A stretch of DNA of 64,000 nucleotides, taken from Chloroflexota bacterium (GTDB lineage Bacteria > Chloroflexota > UBA11872 > VXOZ01). Below, piece after piece: positions 31,175-43,343 of the stretch. A model generated the notes under the pieces. The model saw only the letters and a list, made by a program, of their open reading frames with translations, did no database searches and was not told where the DNA came from. The position numbers were made by a program, and so were the translations under genes. Within the stretch, counting starts at the first letter, position 1. Every line of letters starts with the position of its first letter. The stretch covers positions 1 to 64,000 of the forward strand of contig JAPPLM010000043.1 in NCBI GenBank assembly GCA_028874195.1. The letters run 5' to 3'.

Positions 31175-32848
31175 ATGACGGTCATAGATGGTGGTCGACT
31201 ATTTGTACAGGCGCTCAAGCGTGAGGGCGTCAACCAGATCTTTACATTGTCCGGTGGTCACATCGAACCGATCCACATAGGCTGTATCGATGAAGGGGTG
31301 AAAATCCTGGATGTGCGGCATGAACAAGTGGCAGGACACTCTGCAGCAGGTTGGTTTCGTGCGACGGGCGAGCCTGGCGTGGCTGTTGTGACTGCAGGCC
31401 CCGGAGTCACGGATACAGTCACCGGTATTGCGGAAGCGTTTTATTCGGAAAGTGCCATGGTTGTGCTAGGCGGACAAACACGCCTGTCTCAGATAGATAT
31501 GGGTGCGCCTCAGAATCTTCCGCACGTTACCTTGTTGGAGTCCATTACGAAGTGGTCGGCTACCATCTATGAGCCCCACCGAATACCAGAATATCTTTCC
31601 CGCGCGCTCCGGATCGCGCGTAGCGGAACGCCGGGGCCCGTCTACTTAGAGGCTCCGCTCGACATTTTATTTGCTGAGTTCGATGAAGAGACGATTAAGT
31701 TTCCAGCGACCTTTCGTAGGCCACAATCTGGTGCCAGTCCGGCGCATGTCGAGGAAACCATGGAGTTGCTCGCGCAAGCGGAACGACCCCTTGTTATTGC
31801 CGGAAACGGTGTCTGGGCAGATCAGGTCGAAGGCGAGCTCTTGGAGTTTGCAGAACAATCGCAGGTGCCTGTGTGGATGACCAATGAATCGCGTGGTGTG
31901 ATTCCCGAGACCCATGCGCTGGCGAAAGGTATGTTTGCTGCGCCGCTCGCGGATCTGGTGATCCTTATGGGCGTGAAGTGCGACTACATGCTGGGTTACG
32001 GGCAAGCGCCTTTGATTCGAGAAGATGCGAAAGTGGTCCAAGTCCATGCGGATGAGACAGTGGTGGGTTTCAACCGAGATGTGGATGTGGGTATTGCAGC
32101 CAACCCTAAGGTTGTTTTAGCGCAACTGAACGATGCGCTGAAGTCGGCTGCAACGCCGGATCGGGCTGCGTGGCACAGTGAGCTTGGTGGTATCGCGGCG
32201 CAGATGGCGGAAGAGGCGGAGCAAGCATATGGCTCAGACTCAACGCCAATGCATCCCGCGCGACTGAGTCGTGAGGTCGTCGAGTTTTTGGATGATGATG
32301 CCATCGTTGTCCCGGATGGGGGCGATATTTCATACGGCTTTTTTGGTCCATGCTTCCAGGCGAGCACGATGGGTCAGGTCATGATTACTGGCGCACTGGG
32401 CTGTCTAGGAGCGGGAACTGGTTTTGCACTGGCCGCGAAGATGGCACACCCTGACAAGCAGGTTATGTTGTTTTCGGGGGATGGAACCTTCGGTTTGAAC
32501 GGCATGGAGTTTGACACCTTTGTTCGGCATAGCTTGCCGATTGTCTGTGTCGTTGCCAATGACAGCGCGTGGGGCATGGTCAAACACGTTCGACGCATGA
32601 TGGCGGGAAACAATAAGCTTGCGGGTTCCGAGTTGTCACAGAACACGCGTTATGAAAAAGTCGTTGAGGCCCTTGGTGGCTATGGTGAGTTCGTCGAGGA
32701 CATTGCCGATGTGAAACCCGCGCTGGAGCGCGCATTTGCCTCGGGACTTCCTGCATGTATCAACGTTGCGGTTCGGCAAGATGTCTGGAGTGCGGCAACG
32801 GAAGGGTACAAAAACAGCTGGGGGCTTGCCGAAGCCGCAGATCGCTGA
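31175..32848 (+). CDS. Thiamine-diphosphate-dependent enzyme, acetolactate-synthase/2-hydroxyacyl-CoA-lyase type
   Basis: A 557-residue ThDP enzyme with the usual three domains. VRHEQVAGHSAAGWFRATGE carries the catalytic glutamate (E51-52 region) that activates the cofactor. The FAD-like or central domain follows at about residues 190-330. GDGTFGLNGMEFDTFVRHSL with the VANDSAWGMVKH segment is the Mg-ThDP motif (GDG-x24-N). Catalytic subunits of acetolactate synthase have a similar size but usually sit beside a small ilvH gene, which is absent, so oxalyl-CoA decarboxylase, 2-hydroxyacyl-CoA lyase or a carboligase are equally possible. AGAGGAGATAGG precedes the ATG. The AsnC/Lrp pair lies downstream. 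Confidence 0.85.
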   Translation: MTVIDGGRLFVQALKREGVNQIFTLSGGHIEPIHIGCIDEGVKILDVRHEQVAGHSAAGWFRATGEPGVAVVTAGPGVTDTVTGIAEAFYSESAMVVLGGQTRLSQIDMGAPQNLPHVTLLESITKWSATIYEPHRIPEYLSRALRIARSGTPGPVYLEAPLDILFAEFDEETIKFPATFRRPQSGASPAHVEETMELLAQAERPLVIAGNGVWADQVEGELLEFAEQSQVPVWMTNESRGVIPETHALAKGMFAAPLADLVILMGVKCDYMLGYGQAPLIREDAKVVQVHADETVVGFNRDVDVGIAANPKVVLAQLNDALKSAATPDRAAWHSELGGIAAQMAEEAEQAYGSDSTPMHPARLSREVVEFLDDDAIVVPDGGDISYGFFGPCFQASTMGQVMITGALGCLGAGTGFALAAKMAHPDKQVMLFSGDGTFGLNGMEFDTFVRHSLPIVCVVANDSAWGMVKHVRRMMAGNNKLAGSELSQNTRYEKVVEALGGYGEFVEDIADVKPALERAFASGLPACINVAVRQDVWSAATEGYKNSWGLAEAADR

Positions 32849-33009: not shown

Positions 33010-33026
33010 TTGCGTGTTTTACGCAA
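33010..33026. promoter_or_regulatory. Inverted repeat before the first AsnC/Lrp pair
   Basis: TTGCGT (33010-33015), a five-base spacer GTTTT, and ACGCAA (33021-33026) form a perfect inverted repeat that ends ten bases before the ATG at 33037. A dimeric or octameric Lrp-type regulator bound here would block translation start or transcription, as expected for autoregulation. Confidence 0.6.
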
Positions 33027-33036
33027 TTGCCACATT

Positions 33037-33495
33037 ATGAGCAAACTAGCCGAACTTGATAGGCAGCTAGTCGAAGCGCTTATCAAAGACCCACTTGAAT
33101 CGAATAAGAATTTAGCCCATCAGCTTGGGACATCGCAGGCAAACATCGCTAGGCGCATAAATCAGCTAACGGAAGACGGTGCGTTGCGTGTCACGGTGCA
33201 AGAGGAGTTTGAAGCTGCCGGCATTCACTTCATGGCCCATGTGGATGTTTACGTATCCACGGGGGAAATAAACAGCGTTGCCAATGCCCTGTGCGAGCTG
33301 CCCCAGGTGACGAGTTGCCTCATCACCGCTGGCACTCCCGAGATTCTCGTGCGCATCGGAGCACAGAATCAAAAGCACTTCGCGGATTTCCTGAACACGG
33401 AAATCGCATCCATTCAGGGCATCGAACGAATCGAAACGCTCACCGTGCTTGAAGTGCCAAAATACAACGTCTGGCATGCCAGTATAGTCTCATGA
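33037..33495 (+). CDS. AsnC/Lrp-family regulator, type I of pair 1
   Basis: Starting at the ATG at 33037, 152 residues. The N-terminal winged helix-turn-helix (LDRQLVEALIKDPLESNKNL, HQLGTSQANIARRINQLTED) is followed by a C-terminal RAM-type alpha-beta sandwich (about residues 65-145), which binds small ligands and forms dimers or octamers. Its stop overlaps the ATG of the next AsnC/Lrp gene by four bases. The closest relative in the window is the gene at 39475-39945 (shared tail ALRVTVQEEFEAAG / MRVALRKDFHAAG). The inverted repeat right before the start suggests autoregulation. Confidence 0.88.
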   Translation: MSKLAELDRQLVEALIKDPLESNKNLAHQLGTSQANIARRINQLTEDGALRVTVQEEFEAAGIHFMAHVDVYVSTGEINSVANALCELPQVTSCLITAGTPEILVRIGAQNQKHFADFLNTEIASIQGIERIETLTVLEVPKYNVWHASIVS

Positions 33496-33953
33496 AAGAG
33501 CCCTTGGACGAAATCGAACGCAAGCTCTTCAACCTTCTCTCGCCCAATGCCCGGGTCAGCAACCGCAAAATAGCCGAGCAACTGGGTGTTACGGAAGGAG
33601 CAATCAGACACCGGCTGAAGAAGCTGACCTCTGCACGCTCCATGCGCGTTGTGGCAATCGCTGATGTCGTGAAAAGCGGAAGGACAGCCGCTCTCTACAT
33701 ACGTTTGACAGTGGAACCCTCTAGGATCAAGCATGTGATTGAGCACTTGGTTAAGGTAGAAGGAATAACCTACATCGCTCAAGTGTCAGGTGCAGCGGAT
33801 ATCACATTTTTGCTTTCAGGCACCAATTTGAGTGCGCTTTTCGAGCTGTTTAGACGCAAGATCAAACCAATGCCCGGTGTTCGAAAATCTAATGCGATTG
33901 TCATCTCCAGCGTAAGAAAGCATGATTTCCAGCTCGCGCACTTTGTGGAATAG
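33492..33953 (+). CDS. AsnC/Lrp-family regulator, type II of pair 1
   Basis: 153 residues, AsnC/Lrp family. The helix-turn-helix is LDEIERKLFNLLSPNARVSN with KIAEQLGVTEGAIRHRLKKL. The RAM-like domain (KSGRTAALYIRLTVEPSRIK onward) is present. It is most like the second gene of the other pair (39914-40423), both having the EGA-[IV]-R-x-RLK recognition helix. The start overlaps the previous stop (ATGA), so the two proteins would be made in a fixed ratio and may form a heteromer. That possibility is inferred from gene structure. Confidence 0.87.
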   Translation: MKEPLDEIERKLFNLLSPNARVSNRKIAEQLGVTEGAIRHRLKKLTSARSMRVVAIADVVKSGRTAALYIRLTVEPSRIKHVIEHLVKVEGITYIAQVSGAADITFLLSGTNLSALFELFRRKIKPMPGVRKSNAIVISSVRKHDFQLAHFVE

Positions 33954-34013
33954 GGTGATTCCGTCTCCACTTTGTCGCAATAGGAGACGACTTCGGAACG
34001 ATCCCTTGGGCTG

Positions 34014-35219
34014 CTAGGCCGCGGCCTTCTCCAGTACATGCACGCCACAAGCGGAACCCAGCCCGATCACATGCGCCAAACCAACCTTTGCGCCTTCAAT
34101 CTGACGCTGCTTTCCTTCATCGCGCAAGTGTTGGCACACCTCCCAGATGTTGGCGATGCCCGTTGCTGCAATGGGGTGGCCCTTGGACTGAAGCCCTCCG
34201 GAGACGTTGACGGGTAATTGCCCATCACGCCAAGTGGCCCCGGAGTTAAAGAAGTCGGGCGCCCCGCCCTCCTCACACAGCATCAGGTTGTCGTAGTGCA
34301 CCAACTCCGCCGTCGCAAAGCAGTCGTGCAGCTCCACCAGATCCAGGTCCTCCGGGCCTACGCCTGATTGCTCGTAAGCCTGGTTGGCTGCATTGCGGGT
34401 GAGGGTGTTCACGTTGGGCAAGATCTGGCAAGCCTCCTCCCACGGATCCGTAGTCAGGATCGAAGCAGACACCTTAACCGCGCGTCGCTGCTGGCCTTTG
34501 GACAGGGTCTTGAGCTTGGCTCCGTTGACTACCACCGCCGCAGCCGCACCATCGCAGTTGGCCGAGCACATGGGGCGGGTGTTGGGATAGGCGATCATCA
34601 CGTCGTTCATGATCTCCTCAGCCGACATCGCCTTGGTGTAGGCGGCCAACGGATTCAGCGTGGAATGGAAGTGGTTTTTCTCGCTGATCTTGGCGAACAG
34701 CTCAAAGCTGGTTCCGCCATAGCGGTGCCCATATTCCATGCCAATCTGGGCGAATACGCCCGGCATGGTTGCCGTGCCAATGCGCCCATCGACTTCCGCG
34801 ACCGCTCCGTAGCGACCTGAGGGCTCCCAAACTTCTGAGTCTTCCTTGCGGTCGGCGCCCGCCAGCAAGCCAGCACCTGCCAACTTCTCGACTCCAACCG
34901 CTAGACCAACATCCGCCTCATCGGCTTTCACGGCCATAATCGCAGTCCGCAGGGCCGTGGCACCGGTAGCGCAAGCATTGGTGACGTTATAGACGGGAAT
35001 ACCCGTTTGCCCCACCTGCTTTTGCAACTGCTGCCCCATGCCGCCTCCCCCACGCGTGCTGCCAACGGCGAGCACGCCCACATCCGCCATGGTGACCCCG
35101 CCGTCCGCCAGCGCGCCATGAATGGCCGAAACACCAAGATCCACCAAATCCTTATCTGGGTGCTTGCCGAACTTGGTCATGTGAATGCCCAGAATCCAAA
35201 TCTCGTCCATTGCGCTCAT
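34014..35219 (-). CDS. Thiolase (acetyl-CoA acetyltransferase / SCP2-thiolase type), copy 1
   Basis: 401 residues of the thiolase superfamily. The nucleophile region is VYNVTNACATGATALRTAIM with the reactive cysteine in N-A-C-A. LDLVELHDCFATAELVHYDN holds the HD-type motif of SCP2-like thiolases, and GGLQSKGHPIAATGIANI the GHP histidine. The C-terminus has the GSACGVHVLEK cysteine. It directly precedes a DUF35 OB-fold gene in transcription order. Thiolase plus DUF35 complexes are known as Ltp2/ChsH2-type retro-aldolases in steroid side-chain degradation and as acetoacetyl-CoA thiolase partners in archaea. Which reaction occurs here is unproven. An AGGAG site is seen before the ATG. Confidence 0.9.
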   Translation of the reverse strand: MSAMDEIWILGIHMTKFGKHPDKDLVDLGVSAIHGALADGGVTMADVGVLAVGSTRGGGGMGQQLQKQVGQTGIPVYNVTNACATGATALRTAIMAVKADEADVGLAVGVEKLAGAGLLAGADRKEDSEVWEPSGRYGAVAEVDGRIGTATMPGVFAQIGMEYGHRYGGTSFELFAKISEKNHFHSTLNPLAAYTKAMSAEEIMNDVMIAYPNTRPMCSANCDGAAAAVVVNGAKLKTLSKGQQRRAVKVSASILTTDPWEEACQILPNVNTLTRNAANQAYEQSGVGPEDLDLVELHDCFATAELVHYDNLMLCEEGGAPDFFNSGATWRDGQLPVNVSGGLQSKGHPIAATGIANIWEVCQHLRDEGKQRQIEGAKVGLAHVIGLGSACGVHVLEKAAA

Positions 35220-35243
35220 CGTTTATCTCCTCGTTGCGCTTCG

Positions 35244-35639
35244 CTAAGCCGCTGGCTCGAATCCAAAGCCGATGGCCTCGGTGCCATTTTCGTCTTTGCC
35301 CATGGAATAGGTTGCCAGACGCACCTTCATGCCCAGCGACACATGTTCGGGGTCTGGCGGCGTGTTGATGATGTTCGCACGCACGCTGGTGCCATCACAG
35401 TCGACCACGGCGGATACGAACGGCACCTCAATGCCGGGGGCTGCCCTGCTCACGATGGTAAACGCCCTCACCTCGCCTTCCGTGGCGACATCAGCGTCTC
35501 GGAATTCCGTCCCAAAACACGCTGCGCAGGCGTTGCGCCGATCGAAGTAGCGCGCGCCACACCGCACGCATTCGTGAGCCACCAAATGCGGCTCGTTGTT
35601 CAACACCAGGTAGGACACCAATGGAACTTGGTTCGCCAT
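35244..35639 (-). CDS. DUF35 OB-fold zinc-ribbon protein, thiolase partner, copy 1
   Basis: 131 residues. The N-terminal zinc ribbon has four cysteines in CVRCGARYFDRRNACAACFG, two CxxC pairs about 13 residues apart. An OB-fold follows (EGEVRAFTIVSRAAPGIEVP onward), ending in GFGFEPAA. DUF35 proteins bridge or chaperone acyl-CoA substrates to thiolase-fold enzymes. The start has GAGGGGAG in front. The thiolase gene lies 25 bases downstream, so the two form a unit like the one at 41760-43343. Confidence 0.88.
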   Translation of the reverse strand: MANQVPLVSYLVLNNEPHLVAHECVRCGARYFDRRNACAACFGTEFRDADVATEGEVRAFTIVSRAAPGIEVPFVSAVVDCDGTSVRANIINTPPDPEHVSLGMKVRLATYSMGKDENGTEAIGFGFEPAA

Positions 35640-35668
35640 TCACGCACTCCCCTCAAACTTCCGGTAGT

Positions 35669-36688
35669 CTACAGCTCCACAATCACCTTAACCTGATCCG
35701 TCGGCTTACGCATAGTCTCAAACATCTCAGGCAATTCCTCTAAGCTGATGCGATGCGATATCAATGGCTTAGCTACGATCCTGCCTTGGTCCATTAGCTT
35801 GAGGATTTCAGCAAAGTCCTCGACCCTGTAGCCCGCCGCAAAAATCAACTGCAATCGTTTCTCGAAGCACAGCATAGGCTGAAAGCGGTCGTACCCGAAA
35901 CACACACCCACCACCACAATGCGGGCATTGTTGCTGGCCATTTCAATGCAGCGCTGAATCATGCCGGGGACACCGACAGCTTCGACAATCACCGAAGGCG
36001 CGCGGCCGGCAATGCGTTCAAATTCCGCGGCCGGATCATCCACATCGTTTCCATCAATCAATATGTTAGCGCCCATCTCCTCTGCCAGAGATAGGCGAGG
36101 CGCATTCAACTCGGAAACGGCAATGTCGGTTACGCCAAAGTGCTTGCACCACTGGGCAACACACAGCCCAATGGGGCCCGCGCCAATAATCAGCACCGAA
36201 TCACTCATTTTCAGTTCCGCTTTGCGAACCGTGCTGTAGCCAACGGCAAGGGGCTCCACAACAGCAGCATCCATGTAGCCCACACCGTCCGGCAGCCGCA
36301 ACGCCGTTGCTGCGCTCACCCGAGCGTACTCCGCGTAAGCACCATCAACGTTGGAACTAAAACCAATGAGATCCGAATTTTCACAATCTGAATAGTTCTC
36401 TCGCCTACAACTCGGGCACTCGCCGCAAACTAACTTCGCCAAAGGAACCGCGCGGTCACCTACTGACCAACCAGTGACCTGGTCGCCTACTGCTGCCACT
36501 TCACCCGAAAACTCATGGCCCATGACAATGTCGGTGGGAGTCCAGCTCGCCTCACTGGCATGCAAATCGCTGCCGCAAACACCCACGGCCTTTACCCGCA
36601 CCAATAGCTCATCGGCTCGGATTTCTGGTTCAGGGCGCTCCTCAAGTACCAGAGGCTGGCCGAGCTCCTTGAAAACCACTGCCTTCAT
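35669..36688 (-). CDS. Zinc-dependent alcohol dehydrogenase (MDR family)
   Basis: 339 residues of the medium-chain dehydrogenase/reductase family. The catalytic-zinc site is seen in VCGSDLHASE and IVMGHEFSGEVAAVGDQVTG. The structural zinc comes from the four cysteines of CGECPSCRRENYSDC. SVLIIGAGPIGLCVAQWCKH is the NAD(P) Rossmann motif. It oxidises an alcohol or reduces an aldehyde or ketone; related members act on 2,3-butanediol, threonine or sugar alcohols. A 17-base tandem duplication (36672-36705) covers its start codon and creates a six-codon upstream ORF. The ligase at 36725-38272 precedes it on the same strand, so they may be co-transcribed. Confidence 0.92.
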   Translation of the reverse strand: MKAVVFKELGQPLVLEERPEPEIRADELLVRVKAVGVCGSDLHASEASWTPTDIVMGHEFSGEVAAVGDQVTGWSVGDRAVPLAKLVCGECPSCRRENYSDCENSDLIGFSSNVDGAYAEYARVSAATALRLPDGVGYMDAAVVEPLAVGYSTVRKAELKMSDSVLIIGAGPIGLCVAQWCKHFGVTDIAVSELNAPRLSLAEEMGANILIDGNDVDDPAAEFERIAGRAPSVIVEAVGVPGMIQRCIEMASNNARIVVVGVCFGYDRFQPMLCFEKRLQLIFAAGYRVEDFAEILKLMDQGRIVAKPLISHRISLEELPEMFETMRKPTDQVKVIVEL

Positions 36689-36714
36689 AAAACCACTGCC
36701 TTCATAAAACCACT
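36672..36714 (-). repeat. 17-base tandem duplication over the adh start, with six-codon leader ORF
   Basis: On the minus strand ATGAAGGCAGTGGTTTT occurs at 36705-36689 and again at 36688-36672, followed upstream by a partial third copy. The upstream ATG (36705) opens a six-codon ORF whose TGA (36687-36685) overlaps the true ATG as ATGA. The unit length of 17 puts the two starts out of frame. Confidence 0.9.
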
Positions 36715-36724
36715 TTCAGTTTTC

Positions 36725-38272
36725 TCAGATGTTCCTTTCGTGCCCAATCCAGTACTTTTCACGCAACTTGTTTTTCAGGACTTTGCCCGTCGGGTTAAGA
36801 GGAAGCCCGGCTACAAACTCATATTGCCTAGGGTGCTTGTAGCGCGCAAGCCGATCTTCGACAAATACACGAAGTTCTTCTTCAGTGACGGAGGCTCCCT
36901 CTGCAATCACGACAAACGCGAGAGGTTGCTCGCCGAATTCCTCATGCGGAATTCCAATGACCGCGCAGGACAAGACCCCATCGTGCGCTGCCAATACCTT
37001 CTCTATCTCCGCGGGATAGATGTTGACACCTCCCGCGATGATCATGTCTTTCATTCGATCGGTAATAAAAAGATAGCCGTCTTCATCCAAATAGCCAACA
37101 TCACCCGTACGATAGAAACCATCACGCAACGTCTCCGTATCGAGCGGCGGTTTACCGATGTAGTTATTCAGCACCAACGGCGTATTGACAGCAATTTCAC
37201 CTATTTCTCCACACGGCAGTTCCTTCCAGTCACTGTCAATAATGCTCACTTGAACCCCGTCGTGGATTTTGGCGCTACTGCCAGGTTTCTTGATTTTGTC
37301 TTCTGGGCTCACCGCCCCAATCATGTTGGCTTCGCTCAAACCATAAGTTTCCCACAAGACAGGCCCAAAATGCTGCACGGCCCAACTGGCCAAGTCTGAA
37401 CCTACAGGTGCTGCTCCAGTAACAAGAGTGCGCATTGACGACACGTCGTATTTCGACAGTGTTTCCTCTGGCAACGATCGAATGCGCTGGAGCATTGTAG
37501 GTACGGCTGTCCACATATTCACTTTGTGTTCTTCGATCAGCCTGAGCGCCTCTTCTGCATCGAAGGGACTTAACAGCACCGTGGTTCCTCCGGTCTCTGT
37601 TGCCACGGTTGCGGCCAGCGGGCCCGCGCCATGATGGACTGGCAAGGACAGCATGACTACACGGCGCCCCTCAGGACGCTGAGGCCTCCGTGCAATCGAC
37701 CTTAGGTACGAATCTAGACGTTGCTGCTCCTTCAGTGACGCGGGCGGATCCGCAGGTGGAACACCTTTCGGATTGCCTGTCGTGCCGGAAGTGTATATCA
37801 CCATTTGTGGTCGAGCAGGGCCAAAGCGCGTCACCAGTCTGTTGTCGGCTAACAAGTCTTCAAACCGAAGCCAATCTCTAGAGGGCTGCGCACCCTCAGT
37901 TAACAATACGCCGATGTCCAGGCCCAGCCATGCTTCCGGATCATCGTCATCACAGGCCAAGCCTTTGGCGCCACTATCCTTCAGGATGTAAAGGGCCTCC
38001 TCCGCGGTTAGGCGATAATTCACAGTGACTTGAACAACGCCCAGTTTTTGACATGCTCGTTGAACAACGAACCACATGAATCCGAGTCGAAATCGCATTC
38101 CAATTCGATCGCCATTGGAAAATCCAACATTTGCCAAGCCTTCGGCGACTCGGTTTGCCCTTTCATTCCAATCAGCGTAGGTGAGTGACCGATTGCCAAA
38201 TCGAACCGCGACGGCGTCCGGCGTTCGATCCGCCCACTCCTCGGGTGAGCCAGATTCAGCGGTCTTCAGCAT
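36725..38272 (-). CDS. AMP-dependent acyl-CoA ligase / synthetase
   Basis: An ATG at 38272 after GGGGAGAAGAAG is preferred over one at 38356, giving 515 residues. It activates a carboxylic acid via acyl-AMP to acyl-CoA. Motifs: P-loop-like YTSGTTGNPKGV (residues 168-179), ETYGLSEANMIGAVS, YRTGDVGYLDEDGYLFITDR, and the C-terminal lysine loop PLNPTGKVLKNKLRE. The family spans fatty, aromatic and steroid-type acids. A remnant of a related ligase exists at 46302-46421. It is followed by the alcohol dehydrogenase and thiolase-DUF35 genes on the same strand. ATTACGCAT lies 34 bases upstream at 38306-38314. Confidence 0.92.
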   Translation of the reverse strand: MLKTAESGSPEEWADRTPDAVAVRFGNRSLTYADWNERANRVAEGLANVGFSNGDRIGMRFRLGFMWFVVQRACQKLGVVQVTVNYRLTAEEALYILKDSGAKGLACDDDDPEAWLGLDIGVLLTEGAQPSRDWLRFEDLLADNRLVTRFGPARPQMVIYTSGTTGNPKGVPPADPPASLKEQQRLDSYLRSIARRPQRPEGRRVVMLSLPVHHGAGPLAATVATETGGTTVLLSPFDAEEALRLIEEHKVNMWTAVPTMLQRIRSLPEETLSKYDVSSMRTLVTGAAPVGSDLASWAVQHFGPVLWETYGLSEANMIGAVSPEDKIKKPGSSAKIHDGVQVSIIDSDWKELPCGEIGEIAVNTPLVLNNYIGKPPLDTETLRDGFYRTGDVGYLDEDGYLFITDRMKDMIIAGGVNIYPAEIEKVLAAHDGVLSCAVIGIPHEEFGEQPLAFVVIAEGASVTEEELRVFVEDRLARYKHPRQYEFVAGLPLNPTGKVLKNKLREKYWIGHERNI

Positions 38273-38514
38273 TCTTCTTCTCCCCTTATGGTCATCCGCA
38301 TATGAATTACGCATTATAGCAACTTGAATGTCCCGTGACCCGCTACCGGACAGCAACTAGGCCTCCAATGACAATTTGTTTGAGCACAGACCTTCAATCT
38401 GTTACTTTTCTCGTAGCTCAACGATTAGACTCGCACACATGGTGGGCGGTGGTGCGGATTACTTCGCTCACGGGCTCCCAGCTTAACTATGCAAAATTGC
38501 AACAGGAGATAGAT

Positions 38515-38931
38515 ATGACAATGTCCAAGGAAGAGCAACAGATCATTGACTACCTGTATTCGCGTAGTGACTACTCGAAGAAGAATCTGGAAGAAATGCC
38601 AGACATTCACGCAAAAGCTGGGGCTTTAGAATTCCAGTCCCACGGTGGACTCCTAGAAGTGGTCATGCCACATGAGAGCAAAATAAAATACGACTACTTT
38701 AACGTGGAACCTAAGCACATTGAGACGGTAAAGCTTGCCGATGATGCTGTTGCGGCTATGTACTATTTGTCTGGCAACGCCAAGATCACCGGCGGACCGA
38801 GCATTACCAACTATGCTGCAAGAGTCACCGAGGTATTCATCAAGGAAGGCGACAGTTGGAAGGGTCGCATCGGCCATTGGTCACCGTTGTTTGGTCAGGC
38901 AGGCCTAACCACTTCATTCGATCCTGATTGA
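38515..38931 (+). CDS. NTF2/SnoaL-like protein
   Basis: Starting at the ATG at 38515 (ACAGGAGATAG in front) it has 138 residues. A SnoaL/NTF2-like cone fold is suggested by an N-terminal helix, DYLYSRSDYSKKNLEEMPDI, a strand with LEFQSHGGLLEV, and the C-terminal strands VTEVFIKEGDSWKGRIGHWS. It is not close to the family A, B or C members elsewhere in the window. No signal peptide. Divergent from the acyl-CoA ligase. Confidence 0.78.
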   Translation: MTMSKEEQQIIDYLYSRSDYSKKNLEEMPDIHAKAGALEFQSHGGLLEVVMPHESKIKYDYFNVEPKHIETVKLADDAVAAMYYLSGNAKITGGPSITNYAARVTEVFIKEGDSWKGRIGHWSPLFGQAGLTTSFDPD

Positions 38932-38935
38932 GGGC

Positions 38936-39220
38936 TTACACTAGCACCTTCATTTCGTGTCGCTGCGTACTCTGTATGCAATCGCGCAGAAGGCCTCCGA
39001 GTTCTTTGAAATACGCCGCCTGTCTATGCTCGTCCAGCGCCTCCTGGCTCGCGTACTTTTCGAGAATCACATAATTTTCGTGCACTGTCGTCTTGCATAA
39101 ATCATACTGGAGGCATCCCGATTCGTTTTCGAGTGATGCGGCGGACAGCCGACCAACAAGATCCTGAAATTCGCCTTCTCGCCCTTCCTTGACGTCGACT
39201 CTGATGAACAACACAATCAA
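38936..39220 (-). CDS. Antibiotic-biosynthesis-monooxygenase (ABM) domain protein
   Basis: A TTG at 39220 preceded by GGAG is the best start, giving 94 residues, the usual size of an ABM-type ferredoxin-like dimeric protein. VLFIRVDVKEGREGEFQDLV, ESGCLQYDLCKTT and NYVILEKYASQEALDEHRQA show the typical barrel strands and the E-x-Y/W motif. Such proteins oxidise quinol or aromatic substrates without cofactor, or bind haem. The role here is unknown, and it is convergent with the SnoaL-like gene five bases away. Confidence 0.85.
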   Translation of the reverse strand: MIVLFIRVDVKEGREGEFQDLVGRLSAASLENESGCLQYDLCKTTVHENYVILEKYASQEALDEHRQAAYFKELGGLLRDCIQSTQRHEMKVLV

Positions 39221-39420
39221 TGCACATCTCCAGTTTGAGCATTTCCATGAGCCTACGCATATATAAACGTTTGTCAACACGTTCTGCCTAAGTGCGTGTT
39301 CCGAAGTTCCACTTGGACCGAAAATCCACATCAATCTGTCCATCCTAGACTTTAACTCACACTCCTTTAGCAGCTCCGCAAGCTGCTATTTGCGCAATCT
39401 ACTGCACCAACTTTGCTTTG

Positions 39421-39452
39421 TTGCGTATCGATTCAATGCTATTATTACGCAC
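39421..39452. promoter_or_regulatory. TTGCGTA / ATTACGCAC sites before the second AsnC/Lrp pair
   Basis: TTGCGTA at 39421-39427 faces ATTACGCAC at 39444-39452, opposed half-sites with about 16 bases between them. They end 22 bases before the ATG at 39475, the same situation as at 33010-33026 before the first pair. Confidence 0.55.
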
Positions 39453-39474
39453 CGAACCCACACAGCGTGTTTAC

Positions 39475-39945
39475 ATGTCTGACTTGGACAACATTTCGAC
39501 CAGCATTCTTCGTGTTTTGGCTAGAGATCCTCGGACACCAAACAATGCCATTGCCAAGGAGGTCGGCGTCGCTGAAGCAACTGTTGCAGCGCGACTTAGG
39601 CAGATGCGGGAAAACAAGATAATGCGTGTCGCCTTACGCAAGGACTTTCACGCCGCTGGGTACGATTTTCAAACTACCGTCGATATAGCGACTTCGGGTC
39701 GTTCTGTGCACAGTGTTGCCGAAGAGTTGGCTGCGCTCGATGCTGTAAAGGCCGTAATGATCGTGATGCGTAAGCCAGAAATCATAATTACGATTAACAC
39801 AAAAGATCGACAAGAATTAGCACATATAATTTCGGACCATGTATCAACCATCCGCGGCGTTGCTGAGATCGAAACACATGCCGTCTTGCGGATCAGAAAG
39901 TCGAGAGTGCGGTATGCCAACCTCAAATCCAAATACGGTGATTGA
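39475..39945 (+). CDS. AsnC/Lrp-family regulator, type I of pair 2
   Basis: 156 residues from the ATG at 39475. The winged helix-turn-helix is NISTSILRVLARDPRTPNNA with KEVGVAEATVAARLRQMREN, followed by a RAM-type domain through VSTIRGVAEIETHAVLRIRK. It corresponds to the first gene of the other pair (33037-33495), both sharing a recognition helix with x-A-x-RL/INQ and the D/EF-x-AAG turn. The next gene starts inside its end (32-base overlap). The TACGCA-type sites upstream may bind this regulator. Confidence 0.87.
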   Translation: MSDLDNISTSILRVLARDPRTPNNAIAKEVGVAEATVAARLRQMRENKIMRVALRKDFHAAGYDFQTTVDIATSGRSVHSVAEELAALDAVKAVMIVMRKPEIIITINTKDRQELAHIISDHVSTIRGVAEIETHAVLRIRKSRVRYANLKSKYGD

Positions 39946-40423
39946 TGACCTCGACGAGGCCATTATCGCGGAATTCCAATACGACGGCCGCCAAAGCAAT
40001 CGAGAGGTAGCTCGCAAGCTTAACGTCTCGGAAGGAGCAGTACGCCAACGTCTTAAACGATTGCAGGAAAAGAAAATCGTCGCATTTAACCTATTGATTG
40101 ACACGGCGAGTTCTGGAAATCACTTTGGCGCCATATTCCGCGTAAACGTTGCTCCAAACCAAATGGAGAGATTGCTAAAAAGTGCTGAGAAGATTGATGA
40201 GGTTACCTATCTGGTTGAATGCGCAGGTCGATACAACGTCGCGGGGTTCATTAGCACAAGAGATCAGCGCTCAGCGCTAAAGCTCATTGATCAGCATTTT
40301 CTTACCGCAAAGGGAGTCAACTCCGTGGACGTCATCCAGTTGGCGCAACAAATAAAGCACAACTTTCTGGAAACTGTTATCGCAGAAGAACGATCACACT
40401 CGGAAAGCGAATCTAGTTTGTGA
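39914..40423 (+). CDS. AsnC/Lrp-family regulator, type II of pair 2
   Basis: 169 residues. Helix-turn-helix DDLDEAIIAEFQYDGRQSNR with ARKLNVSEGAVRQRLKRLQE; the RAM-like domain follows (FGAIFRVNVAPNQMERLLKS) with a charged tail. It parallels the gene at 33492-33953 (EGAIRHRLKKL). The ATG lies 32 bases inside the end of the previous gene, so the two are translationally linked. Both pairs keep the order type I then type II, which suggests duplication of a functional unit. Confidence 0.86.
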   Translation: MPTSNPNTVIDDLDEAIIAEFQYDGRQSNREVARKLNVSEGAVRQRLKRLQEKKIVAFNLLIDTASSGNHFGAIFRVNVAPNQMERLLKSAEKIDEVTYLVECAGRYNVAGFISTRDQRSALKLIDQHFLTAKGVNSVDVIQLAQQIKHNFLETVIAEERSHSESESSL

Positions 40424-40532: not shown

Positions 40533-41687
40533 CTATCCGAATAGCCTTTTTGTGGCAATCGCTGCACCCTCAGCCAATGTTTGCAGCTTAGCTCGCGCTA
40601 TACTAGGAACGACATTCGGCAGGTCAGCATAAGTGGAAAAGCCACAGTCAGTGCCAGCCATTACCCTTTCCTTACCCACTCTTTCAGCATAGGCAACAAT
40701 TCGATTCGCTACTAGTTCCGGGTGCTCTATGTAGTTGGTGCAAGTGTCAATCACGCCCGGCACTAAGTACTTGTCATCAGGAAGTGTAACGCTAGAAAAC
40801 ACGTCCACTTCGTGGGCGTGTCTTGGATTAGCTCCCTCTAAGAGTAAACCAGCTGGCCTGGCTCTTAATACTTCTCCAATAATGGTTTGGAGCGGTACAT
40901 CGCAATGATGTGGACCGTCATAGTTGCCCCAGCACACGTGCATGCGCAAACGATCAGAAGGAATATTGCGTGTGGCGTGGTTAAGTATTTCGACATTGCG
41001 AGCAACGGACTTCATAAATTTCTGCTCGTCCTGTTGGTAGTAGCCAAGATGGCGGTTCATCGCAAGATCTGGACAATCCAACTGCACCATGAAACCAGCT
41101 TCAGCAATCGCTTCATACTCCGGCCGCATGGCTTCAGCGAGGGCTTCCAGATACTCGTCTTGACTGGAGTAATGTTGATTGATTTGAAACACCGAGATCA
41201 CACCAGGTGAGGCAGCGCTCATGAATCCTTCAACGTTCTCATTGGCAGCCAGAGCATTAGAAAGGCAGCTGATATCGAGCGCTGTTTCTTCACCACCGTG
41301 CGCATTGGGTTCAACCTCATCTACACAGACCAGACGCATTTCGTCCACGTTTACGCGGCCTGACTCGATCAAGCGGTGTGCGTACTCAGGAAACTCGATA
41401 ATGTCACCCAGTATGCCGTTGGCTCTTGCTTCGTCAGGTTCACCTTCACCGAAGCCATCGAGACGGGACGTGATGTAGGTAGCGTAGCTTGGTTTAGAGA
41501 GCTCTCCATCATTGACAATGTCGATACCCGCTGAAAGCTGAAACTCAACGATCTCATCAACAGCGCGCTGTAGTTGCAGATGTGCTTCTTTCGACATTTC
41601 GCTGCGCAAGGTTTTCCAGGAGGCAAAGAACCACTCTGGACGCGGAAGACTACCAACATGAGTGGTCTTGATTTTATCGGTATTCAC
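40533..41687 (-). CDS. MetE-like (cobalamin-independent methionine synthase C-terminal type) protein
   Basis: A GTG at 41687 after AAGGGGAG is chosen over a TTG at 41705; 384 residues. TTHVGSLPRP near the N-terminus and DIVNDGELSKPSYATYI are typical of the catalytic MetE barrel. LQLDCPDLAMNRH and LRMHVCWGNYDGP hold the probable zinc ligands (HxC), with the final glutamate/cysteine region MAGTDCGFSTYADLPNV. The N-terminal MetE half is absent, as in stand-alone methyltransferases and epoxyalkane:CoM-transferase-like proteins. It may therefore act on a thiol such as CoM or a cofactor rather than make methionine. GTGCGTAAA lies 27 bases upstream. Confidence 0.83.
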   Translation of the reverse strand: MNTDKIKTTHVGSLPRPEWFFASWKTLRSEMSKEAHLQLQRAVDEIVEFQLSAGIDIVNDGELSKPSYATYITSRLDGFGEGEPDEARANGILGDIIEFPEYAHRLIESGRVNVDEMRLVCVDEVEPNAHGGEETALDISCLSNALAANENVEGFMSAASPGVISVFQINQHYSSQDEYLEALAEAMRPEYEAIAEAGFMVQLDCPDLAMNRHLGYYQQDEQKFMKSVARNVEILNHATRNIPSDRLRMHVCWGNYDGPHHCDVPLQTIIGEVLRARPAGLLLEGANPRHAHEVDVFSSVTLPDDKYLVPGVIDTCTNYIEHPELVANRIVAYAERVGKERVMAGTDCGFSTYADLPNVVPSIARAKLQTLAEGAAIATKRLFG

Positions 41688-41759
41688 TGAGCTCCCCTTG
41701 TCCAAGTTTTATTGTGCGTAAACTCTAACCACCTAAGTGATAGTGCAGAGTGCCGTGCA

Positions 41760-42899
41760 CTAACAAACCAGCACGTTGATTCCACAAGCACCGCCATCGA
41801 GGCCTGTTACAGATCCCCCCAACATGTGTGCAACACCAACCTTAGCTGACTCAACCTGCATGCCCTGCGCTTGACCTCTCAACTGCCGTGCGATATCCCC
41901 GACAACCCTCACACCGGAGGCACTCAGGGGGTGACCCAAAGAGAGCAGCCCACCACTCGGATTGACGGGAACTCTACCGCCAAGCTCTGTAGCACCTGAT
42001 CTCAGCAAGTTAGCTCCATCGCCTCGTTCACAAAGTTTCAGATCTTCGTAGCGCAGAAGCTCCTCATTAGCAAACGCATCATGTATTTCGACCACATCGA
42101 TGTCTTCTGGCGAGATGCCTGCCATCTGGTATGCGCTCTCAATCGCGACAATGCTAAATGGTGATTCAGTGATATCACTCCTTCTGAAGGCATAATCACC
42201 AGACGTCAGGGAAGATCCAGAAATCTTTACCATCTTCGTGGTATGCCGCCTTGCATAAGCCTCTGAACAGAGGATTACCGCCGCCGCTCCGTCAGAATTC
42301 GGACAGCACTGCAACAGCGTAACAGGGTCGCAAATGGTGCGTGAGTTCAGGATCTCCTCTTCGCTCAGTTCTTTCCGATACTGCGCGAAAGGATTGTGCA
42401 TCGCATGCCTGTGATTCTTCGCCGATACCCTTGCAAAATCGTGAACCGTCGCACCCTGCAACTCCATCTGCCGTCTCGCAACAGTTGAGAACGCAACTGG
42501 CATTGTACGACCAAGCTCCGCATCGAGATCGTTCTTAGACGCCAAAGCGCCGGTCCTCGGCATACCCGTAACTGCTTCTGTACCAATTGCTATCCCAACG
42601 TCGTACAAACCTGACGCTACATCCTTCCAAACGCCACGCACCGCCGTTGACCCACCAGCACACGCATTCTCTACATTGAACATCTCAATCTGAGTAATGC
42701 CATGCGCCATCAAGATTCTTTGAGAGTCGTCTTGGGCGTCAAACCGCCTTGCGGTGTACGCCACTTGAATTTCTCTGGGATCAATGCCACAGTCTCTGAT
42801 CGCTTCACGGACAGCCTCTTGGCCAAGATCGGTCGCCGAACGCTCCGGCATTTTTCCGAAAACCGTCTGCCCTATTCCTAAAACAACAACATCACGCAT
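41760..42899 (-). CDS. Thiolase (SCP2-thiolase type), copy 2
   Basis: 379 residues of the SCP2-like thiolase branch. The reactive-cysteine region is MFNVENACAGGSTAVRGVWK, with IDVVEIHDAFANEELLRYED, GGLLSLGHPLSASGVRVVGD and GGACGINVLVC at the C-terminus. Key cysteine, histidine and C-terminal cysteine are all present. The DUF35 gene lies 39 bases upstream on the same strand, as for copy 1 at 34014-35639. It may catalyse thiolytic or retro-aldol cleavage of an acyl-CoA. Confidence 0.9.
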   Translation of the reverse strand: MRDVVVLGIGQTVFGKMPERSATDLGQEAVREAIRDCGIDPREIQVAYTARRFDAQDDSQRILMAHGITQIEMFNVENACAGGSTAVRGVWKDVASGLYDVGIAIGTEAVTGMPRTGALASKNDLDAELGRTMPVAFSTVARRQMELQGATVHDFARVSAKNHRHAMHNPFAQYRKELSEEEILNSRTICDPVTLLQCCPNSDGAAAVILCSEAYARRHTTKMVKISGSSLTSGDYAFRRSDITESPFSIVAIESAYQMAGISPEDIDVVEIHDAFANEELLRYEDLKLCERGDGANLLRSGATELGGRVPVNPSGGLLSLGHPLSASGVRVVGDIARQLRGQAQGMQVESAKVGVAHMLGGSVTGLDGGACGINVLVC

Positions 42900-42938
42900 T
42901 CCGCCGCCCCATAATCACAAGATTCTGAACTGACCCAA

Positions 42939-43343
42939 CTAAGCTGGTATGAAGTGATAACCGACAACTGACTCGTTGTCCGACCGCCACACTTCGCCAA
43001 CAATGACTTTAACGGGCATGTTGATGCTGACTGGATGGCCCATGTGCTCAGGATGCATCGGCGCGAAAACCTTAACGCCTTCAACCATATCGATTACCCC
43101 GCACACATAGGGTGCCTTTATGAACTCGGCATCCACCTCACTACGAGCATAGGAGTGGATACTTCCTTCTCCGCTGAGCTGAATCTCAGCTAGCTCTTCG
43201 TGCAAGCACTGCATGCAAAATTCCACGGTTGGAGGATAGTAAACCTGACCACACTTCTCACACTTTGCTGCAAGCAGATGGCCTTCGGCTCCTAAGTCAG
43301 AGAGAAGGTTGTCGCGTATCGGTCGGCTATTCATCATTAACAT
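42939..43343 (-). CDS. DUF35 OB-fold zinc-ribbon protein, thiolase partner, copy 2
   Basis: 134 residues. The zinc ribbon cysteines are CEKCGQVYYPPTVEFCMQCL, with the OB-fold after them (GEGSIHSYARSEVDAEFIKA). It has the same arrangement as 35244-35639, but the sequence is clearly different, so it is a separate pair and not a recent duplication. It would assist the neighbouring thiolase by binding acyl-CoA. The start could be the ATG at 43343 or either of two ATGs shortly inside. ATGCGTA at 43461-43467 lies upstream in the divergent promoter region. Confidence 0.88.
   Translation of the reverse strand: MLMMNSRPIRDNLLSDLGAEGHLLAAKCEKCGQVYYPPTVEFCMQCLHEELAEIQLSGEGSIHSYARSEVDAEFIKAPYVCGVIDMVEGVKVFAPMHPEHMGHPVSINMPVKVIVGEVWRSDNESVVGYHFIPA

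Follow-up and report, generated by a model that had tools for sequence, protein, structure and literature searches.

Two ordered pairs of Lrp/AsnC genes

We analysed a 64,000-nucleotide stretch of a Chloroflexota genome (contig JAPPLM010000043.1 of assembly GCA_028874195.1; hereafter the window) that carries two pairs of genes for Lrp/AsnC-family proteins, each made up of a gene of one subunit type (type I; I_1 and I_2) followed by a gene of another (type II; II_1 and II_2). An earlier note on this DNA had described them as duplicated two-gene cassettes and suggested that their products work as a heteromer. The analysis presented here supports that interpretation, heteromer formation itself being something that we infer from sequences and a structure model. 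All four open reading frames (ORFs) lie on the forward strand where the note had placed them (Table 1). The AsnC-type helix-turn-helix (HTH) domain (PF13404) exceeds the Pfam cut-off in all four proteins and the RAM domain (PF01037) in three, the match in II_2 being marginal (21.8 bits vs a cut-off of 25), and all score far under the NCBIfam cut-offs for Lrp and AsnC. A search of the whole genome with PF01037 and PF13404 (3.5 Mb, a 98%-complete assembly) found no further Lrp/AsnC proteins beyond these four.

The two pairs correspond member by member: I_1 and I_2 are 31% identical and II_1 and II_2 24%, more than the 19-22% found between type I and type II. The recognition-helix motif ascribed to type II reads EGAIRHRLK in II_1 and EGAVRQRLK in II_2, and the type I proteins do have a different pattern, A-x-[IV]-A-x-R-[IL]. 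Of the two gene overlaps described previously, the 4-base ATGA shared by I_1 and II_1 is exact, but the 32-base overlap of I_2 and II_2 is not secure: II_2 may start at ATG 39914, which gives the 32 bases, or at the same-frame GTG 39938, which gives 8 and is a better fit to the usual type II N-terminus.

Table 1. Features of the two cassettes and their surroundings (positions in the window)
Feature	Position	Strand	Basis
Inverted repeat TTGCGTGTTTTACGCAA, likely operator through which pair 1 regulates itself	33010-33026		Sequence; half-site enrichment before homologous pairs
I_1, Lrp/AsnC type I of pair 1	33037-33495	+	Pfam HTH and RAM; 192 bits type I vs 90 type II; type I clade
II_1, Lrp/AsnC type II of pair 1	33492-33953	+	Pfam; 187 bits type II vs 89 type I; type II clade
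Cluster of TACGCAA/TTGCGTA-like half-sites before pair 2	39375-39452		Includes TTGCGTA-N18-TACGCAC at 39421-39452
I_2, Lrp/AsnC type I of pair 2	39475-39945	+	Pfam; 194 bits type I vs 86 type II; sister of I_1, 100/97
II_2, Lrp/AsnC type II of pair 2	39914-40423	+	Pfam HTH; 192 bits type II vs 66 type I; long branch, type II group
Thiolase and ChsH2-like oligonucleotide/oligosaccharide-binding (OB)-fold protein, candidate target module	34014-35639	-	Pfam Thiolase_C_1, OB_ChsH2_C, zf-ChsH2; convergent with pair 1
Second thiolase and ChsH2-like OB-fold module	41760-43343	-	Convergent with pair 2 past MetE-like gene
Acyl-coenzyme A (CoA) ligase between the two pairs	36725-38290	-	Pfam AMP-binding; under FadD3 cut-off

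Two subunit clades

A tree of 63 proteins was built from 22 type I, 21 type II and 20 other proteins, divergent sequences being omitted; E. coli Lrp and AsnC were outside it, and ordinary single Lrps of other genomes, included among the 20, stood in for them. The type I proteins lie on one side of a branch with support of 100/97, the type II proteins group at 96/73 and the remaining 20 are separate at 97/90. Each window protein is in the clade of its type, with I_1 and I_2 as sisters (100/97), and the two corresponding classes that the earlier note's reading requires are recovered. The halves of the natural fusions described below also fall into the clades of matching type. The exact place of II_2 is unsure, because a quick tree of 73 sequences, divergent ones included, put it among the single Lrps.

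Conserved order in other genomes

Conserved linkage of type I with type II was also found elsewhere. A tblastn search of plasmids revealed paired homologues in Novosphingobium and Sphingobium, type I always ahead of type II, with an overlap of 14 bases in N. aromaticivorans pNL2 (SARO_RS19550/RS19545) and of 4 bases in the pMSHV and pSHV1 pairs of Sphingobium herbicidovorans. Scanning 84,980 species genomes with a type II alignment, we kept 80 loci. In total 75 adjacent pairs were found (the window's two and 73 others), on the same strand and invariably with the type I gene first. Sequence profiles built for each type discriminate the classes cleanly. The type II gene starts inside the end of the type I gene in most pairs, by 4 bases (27 pairs), 11 (17) or 14 (8), and the divergence of type I is correlated with that of type II (r = 0.94). 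The hosts are Halieaceae, Spongiibacteraceae, sphingomonads and unclassified proteobacteria. One pair, from a metagenome-assembled genome (MAG) labelled Klebsiella pneumoniae, groups with Spongiibacteraceae and related gammaproteobacteria, and its source is probably misbinned or mislabelled.

Because the 80 loci had been selected by type II, we ran the type I profile against the whole of 16 genomes. These genomes were picked for holding a pair, and the result concerns their strong type I genes (at least 150 bits) rather than genomes at large: as read from the match table, 21 of 22 such matches, in 14 proteobacterial genomes, have a second match, a type II gene, immediately downstream. The sole exception is Novosphingobium jiangmenense, where an orphan type I gene (L173, 194 bits) lies 82 kb from an orphan type II gene (L174, 176 bits), as if one pair had been split. 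Both orphans (G124:C11) have long N-terminal extensions in open frame. Two Lrp matches 12-14 kb apart in f10 genomes were considered as a double cassette and rejected, being ordinary single Lrps.

Natural fusions and a structure model

Fusion ORFs with a type I N-terminal half and a type II C-terminal half occur in Mycobacterium (L131, L147, L161, L166 and L167; ~335-341 amino acids), in a gammaproteobacterial MAG (L150) and in Haliea (L175). The two halves score 157 vs 111 and 158 vs 115 bits with the matching vs the other type in L150, and 114 vs 61 and 114 vs 86 bits in L175. Mycobacteria also contain divergent two-domain Lrps that are not clearly of the type I-type II kind (L147:10629-11702, L161:7016-8179 and L131:18315-19358).

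An AlphaFold model of the L166 fusion has a mean predicted local distance difference test (pLDDT) score of 84 and a predicted template modelling (pTM) score of 0.78. In Foldseek its best Protein Data Bank matches are two entries for the fused siroheme decarboxylase NirDL (4ch7 and 4czc), over 312-319 columns with a TM score of 0.61-0.63 of the query; ordinary Lrp structures cover ~140-150 columns, that is, one half of the model.

Half-sites before the pairs

Facing TTGCGT/ACGCAA-like half-sites were said to precede both pairs, and they do. Before pair 1, TTGCGTGTTTTACGCAA is a 17-bp perfect inverted repeat with TTGCGT/ACGCAA arms that ends 10 bases before the I_1 ATG, and upstream of I_2 there are TTGCGTA-N18-TACGCAC (39421-39452) and two overlapping matches from 39375. 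Inverted TACGCAA/TTGCGTA pairs with no more than one mismatch occur at three places in the 64 kb, namely before each cassette and inside a TonB-receptor ORF (222-260). When the upstream regions of the two cassettes were simulated, 0.013 regions on average contained a site, vs the 2 observed.

We tested the half-site on upstream sequences that had played no part in the earlier note. TACGCA is present in 9 of 17 non-redundant sphingomonad upstream sequences, the window excluded (1.4 expected; 0 of 1000 simulations). For ACGCAA the count is 8 of the 17 (2.6 expected; 3 of 1000 simulations). TACGCAA-N30-TTGCGTA precedes the type I gene exactly in L070 and L132, with one mismatch in L124 and L139 and with two in L156, the spacers of these five sites being largely dissimilar. 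Of 74 homologous pairs, 5 are preceded by inverted half-sites with at most one mismatch, where 0.29 would be expected, and so are both window pairs. The geometry varies: the TTGCGT and ACGCAA starts are 11 bp apart before pair 1, and the spacing is N18 before pair 2 and in L078 and N30 in the L070 group. The conserved upstream half-sites are indirect evidence that the window proteins may bind DNA sequence-specifically.

The 17-bp site itself was rejected as a genome-wide regulon marker. Its own genome has two exact copies, the second intragenic, and most of the near copies examined are intragenic. A search for TACGCA-N29-33-TGCGTA returned one site, not above the reversed control.

Genomic context and candidate targets

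Both cassettes face a thiolase/OB-fold module on the opposite strand; between the two modules, identity is 35% for the thiolases and 29% for the OB-fold proteins. These thiolase/ChsH2-like modules are old paralogues, possibly aldolase/thiolase partners that act on CoA thioesters. A cobalamin-independent methionine-synthase-like protein (Meth_synt_2; 40533-41705, reverse strand) beside the second module is unexpected in a setting of CoA-ester catabolism. Immediately upstream of pair 1 lies a thiamine diphosphate (ThDP)-dependent enzyme of the acetolactate-synthase type (31175-32848, forward strand).

The pairs of other genomes lie in related company. Halieaceae pairs come directly after a ligase of the FadD3 family (both of those tested exceed the NCBIfam cut-off), and one of the pairs (L104) is ahead of a two-gene CoA-transferase that is IpdAB-like by resemblance only. 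Sphingomonad pairs adjoin genes annotated as the extradiol dioxygenase, hydrolase, hydratase, aldolase and acetaldehyde dehydrogenase of steroid-ring cleavage (HsaC-G-type), and some adjoin a ketosteroid-dehydrogenase-like gene that is below the equivalog cut-offs. The relatives' role in steroid degradation is not directly transferable to the window, because no HIP-CoA ligase FadD3 exceeds the cut-off in its own genome (best match 278 vs 657 bits), and the window cassettes probably serve another pathway. Five congeneric genomes gave no match to II_1 or II_2 at E 1e-10, so the cassettes appear probably to have been acquired.

A proposed heteromeric regulator and its alternatives

A heteromeric regulator best explains these data, given the constant pairing and order, the fusions and the fold. 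We consider it likely that each cassette encodes one obligate heteromeric Lrp transcription factor, which would regulate itself and control CoA-thioester catabolism. From the computed gene structure, clades, conserved order, fusions, fold match and half-site enrichment we infer complex formation, DNA binding, an effector and targets as follows. Type I and then type II would be translated in sequence from a single mRNA; their RAM domains would join the two into a I-II heterodimer, which probably assembles further into (I-II)n; and the complex would bind half-sites of the TACGCAA type ahead of the first gene of its cassette and would control its own expression and that of neighbouring CoA-thioester catabolic genes, the likely effector being a CoA-thioester or acid of the pathway.

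Several observations weigh against this proposal. The pair-1 operator is symmetric, and a homodimer could read it too; an (I-II)2 assembly in which one subunit type occupies both outer half-sites would, hypothetically, reconcile this symmetry with a heteromer. The half-site is seldom directly before type I in Halieaceae, where FadD3 comes first. The catabolic targets are unproven, since no additional intergenic operator copy was found in the 64-kb window. In the 63-protein tree II_1 and II_2 are together but long-branched, and their junction is unsupported (48/44). Co-linkage and correlated divergence are also expected from plain co-inheritance. Finally, intramolecular I-II pairing is a model, from one predicted chain aligned by Foldseek; the model of the L150 fusion was poor (pTM 0.49) and was not used.

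The main rival explanation is that each protein of a pair forms its own homodimer and regulates independently, the two having an operon and a pathway in common but never mixing. Lrp proteins are usually homo-oligomers, co-functional regulators commonly share operons, and the symmetric site before pair 1 suits a homodimer; however, without a physical partnership it is difficult to account for the fixed order, the near-obligate pairing and three lineages whose fusions keep that order, and the L166 model resembles a fused heterodimer. We therefore regard independent homodimers as unlikely. It is far less likely that the two cassettes are a recent local duplication without wider meaning. The distance between them is 6 kb, I_1 is sister to I_2 and both cassettes face thiolase/OB-fold modules, but identity is just 24-31% between the cassettes and 29-35% between the modules, so that their split is old, and homologous pairs in many other genomes contradict such a reading; the two are ancient paralogues, each facing its own module. 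We rejected as most improbable the identity of the pairs as siroheme or haem d1 decarboxylase-like enzymes (AhbA/AhbB, NirD/L/G/H) rather than regulators, since the shared fold and two-gene or fused architecture, the NirDL top match of the L166 fusion and weak NirDL-like HTH matches in the window proteins stand against AhbA/AhbB NCBIfam equivalog scores of 19-23.5 bits (cut-offs 125/140), the absence of the HXYXR active-site motif (PMC4145669) from all four proteins, an intact AsnC HTH above cut-off and neighbours among which, as far as examined, haem genes were not seen.

Returning to the heteromeric regulator, we more tentatively propose, with somewhat more doubt than confidence, a widespread family of obligate heteromeric Lrps, present as a I-II pair in Proteobacteria and fused in mycobacteria and some gammaproteobacteria, that would act as a dedicated regulator for the breakdown of steroids and related CoA thioesters through (I-II)2 on TACGCAA half-sites ~37 bp apart. 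Lrp/AsnC proteins are currently viewed as self-assembling homomers and annotated gene by gene. If such pairs each make up one two-subunit regulator, many genes annotated as 'Lrp/AsnC family' in degraders of steroids and pollutants would encode half a regulator, and knocking out one gene or assaying the binding of one protein would give misleading results. The I-II family also provides candidate regulators for the clusters that degrade steroid rings in proteobacteria, and a locked heterodimer could be studied simply in the fused forms of mycobacteria.

Comparison with known systems

We found no description of the I-II family in the literature, which is weak evidence as only open-access papers were covered; the nearest are PMC12882949, PMC2995911 and PMC4145669. 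In the first, the bile-salt cluster of Sphingobium sp. Chol11 is reported to include two contiguous Lrp/AsnC genes (NCHOL11_RS15865/RS15860), and regulation that is either cooperative or differential is suggested for them. Like the pairs studied here, these are contiguous genes in a sphingomonad steroid catabolic cluster, and very probably they belong to the same family, the two being set together by description and not by sequence. Unlike the present analysis, that paper gives the pair two sentences and does not describe subunit types, gene order, fusions, an operator or a heteromer.

The earlier note's view that a heteromer is unusual for Lrp proteins needs tempering. AhbA/AhbB, whose genes are fused in archaea, and NirDL are proven heterodimers, although enzymes (PMC4145669), and FL11/DM1 of Pyrococcus horikoshii forms a hetero-octamer in vitro, with heteroassemblies predicted (PMC2995911). 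The latter, of the archaeal feast/famine proteins, is likewise a mixed Lrp-family assembly, shown in vitro there and proposed here; unlike the window pairs, DM1 is a stand-alone RAM protein, and FL11/DM1 have no adjacent full-length HTH pair, fixed order or fusions. With E. coli Lrp and AsnC the window proteins share HTH and RAM domains and likely autoregulation, whereas the E. coli proteins are single-gene and homomeric. AhbA/AhbB and NirDL (4czd, 4ch7) resemble the pairs in having two different Lrp-fold subunits from adjacent or fused genes, the heterodimer being theirs; unlike these HXYXR enzymes, the window proteins are without the motif and keep a standard HTH.

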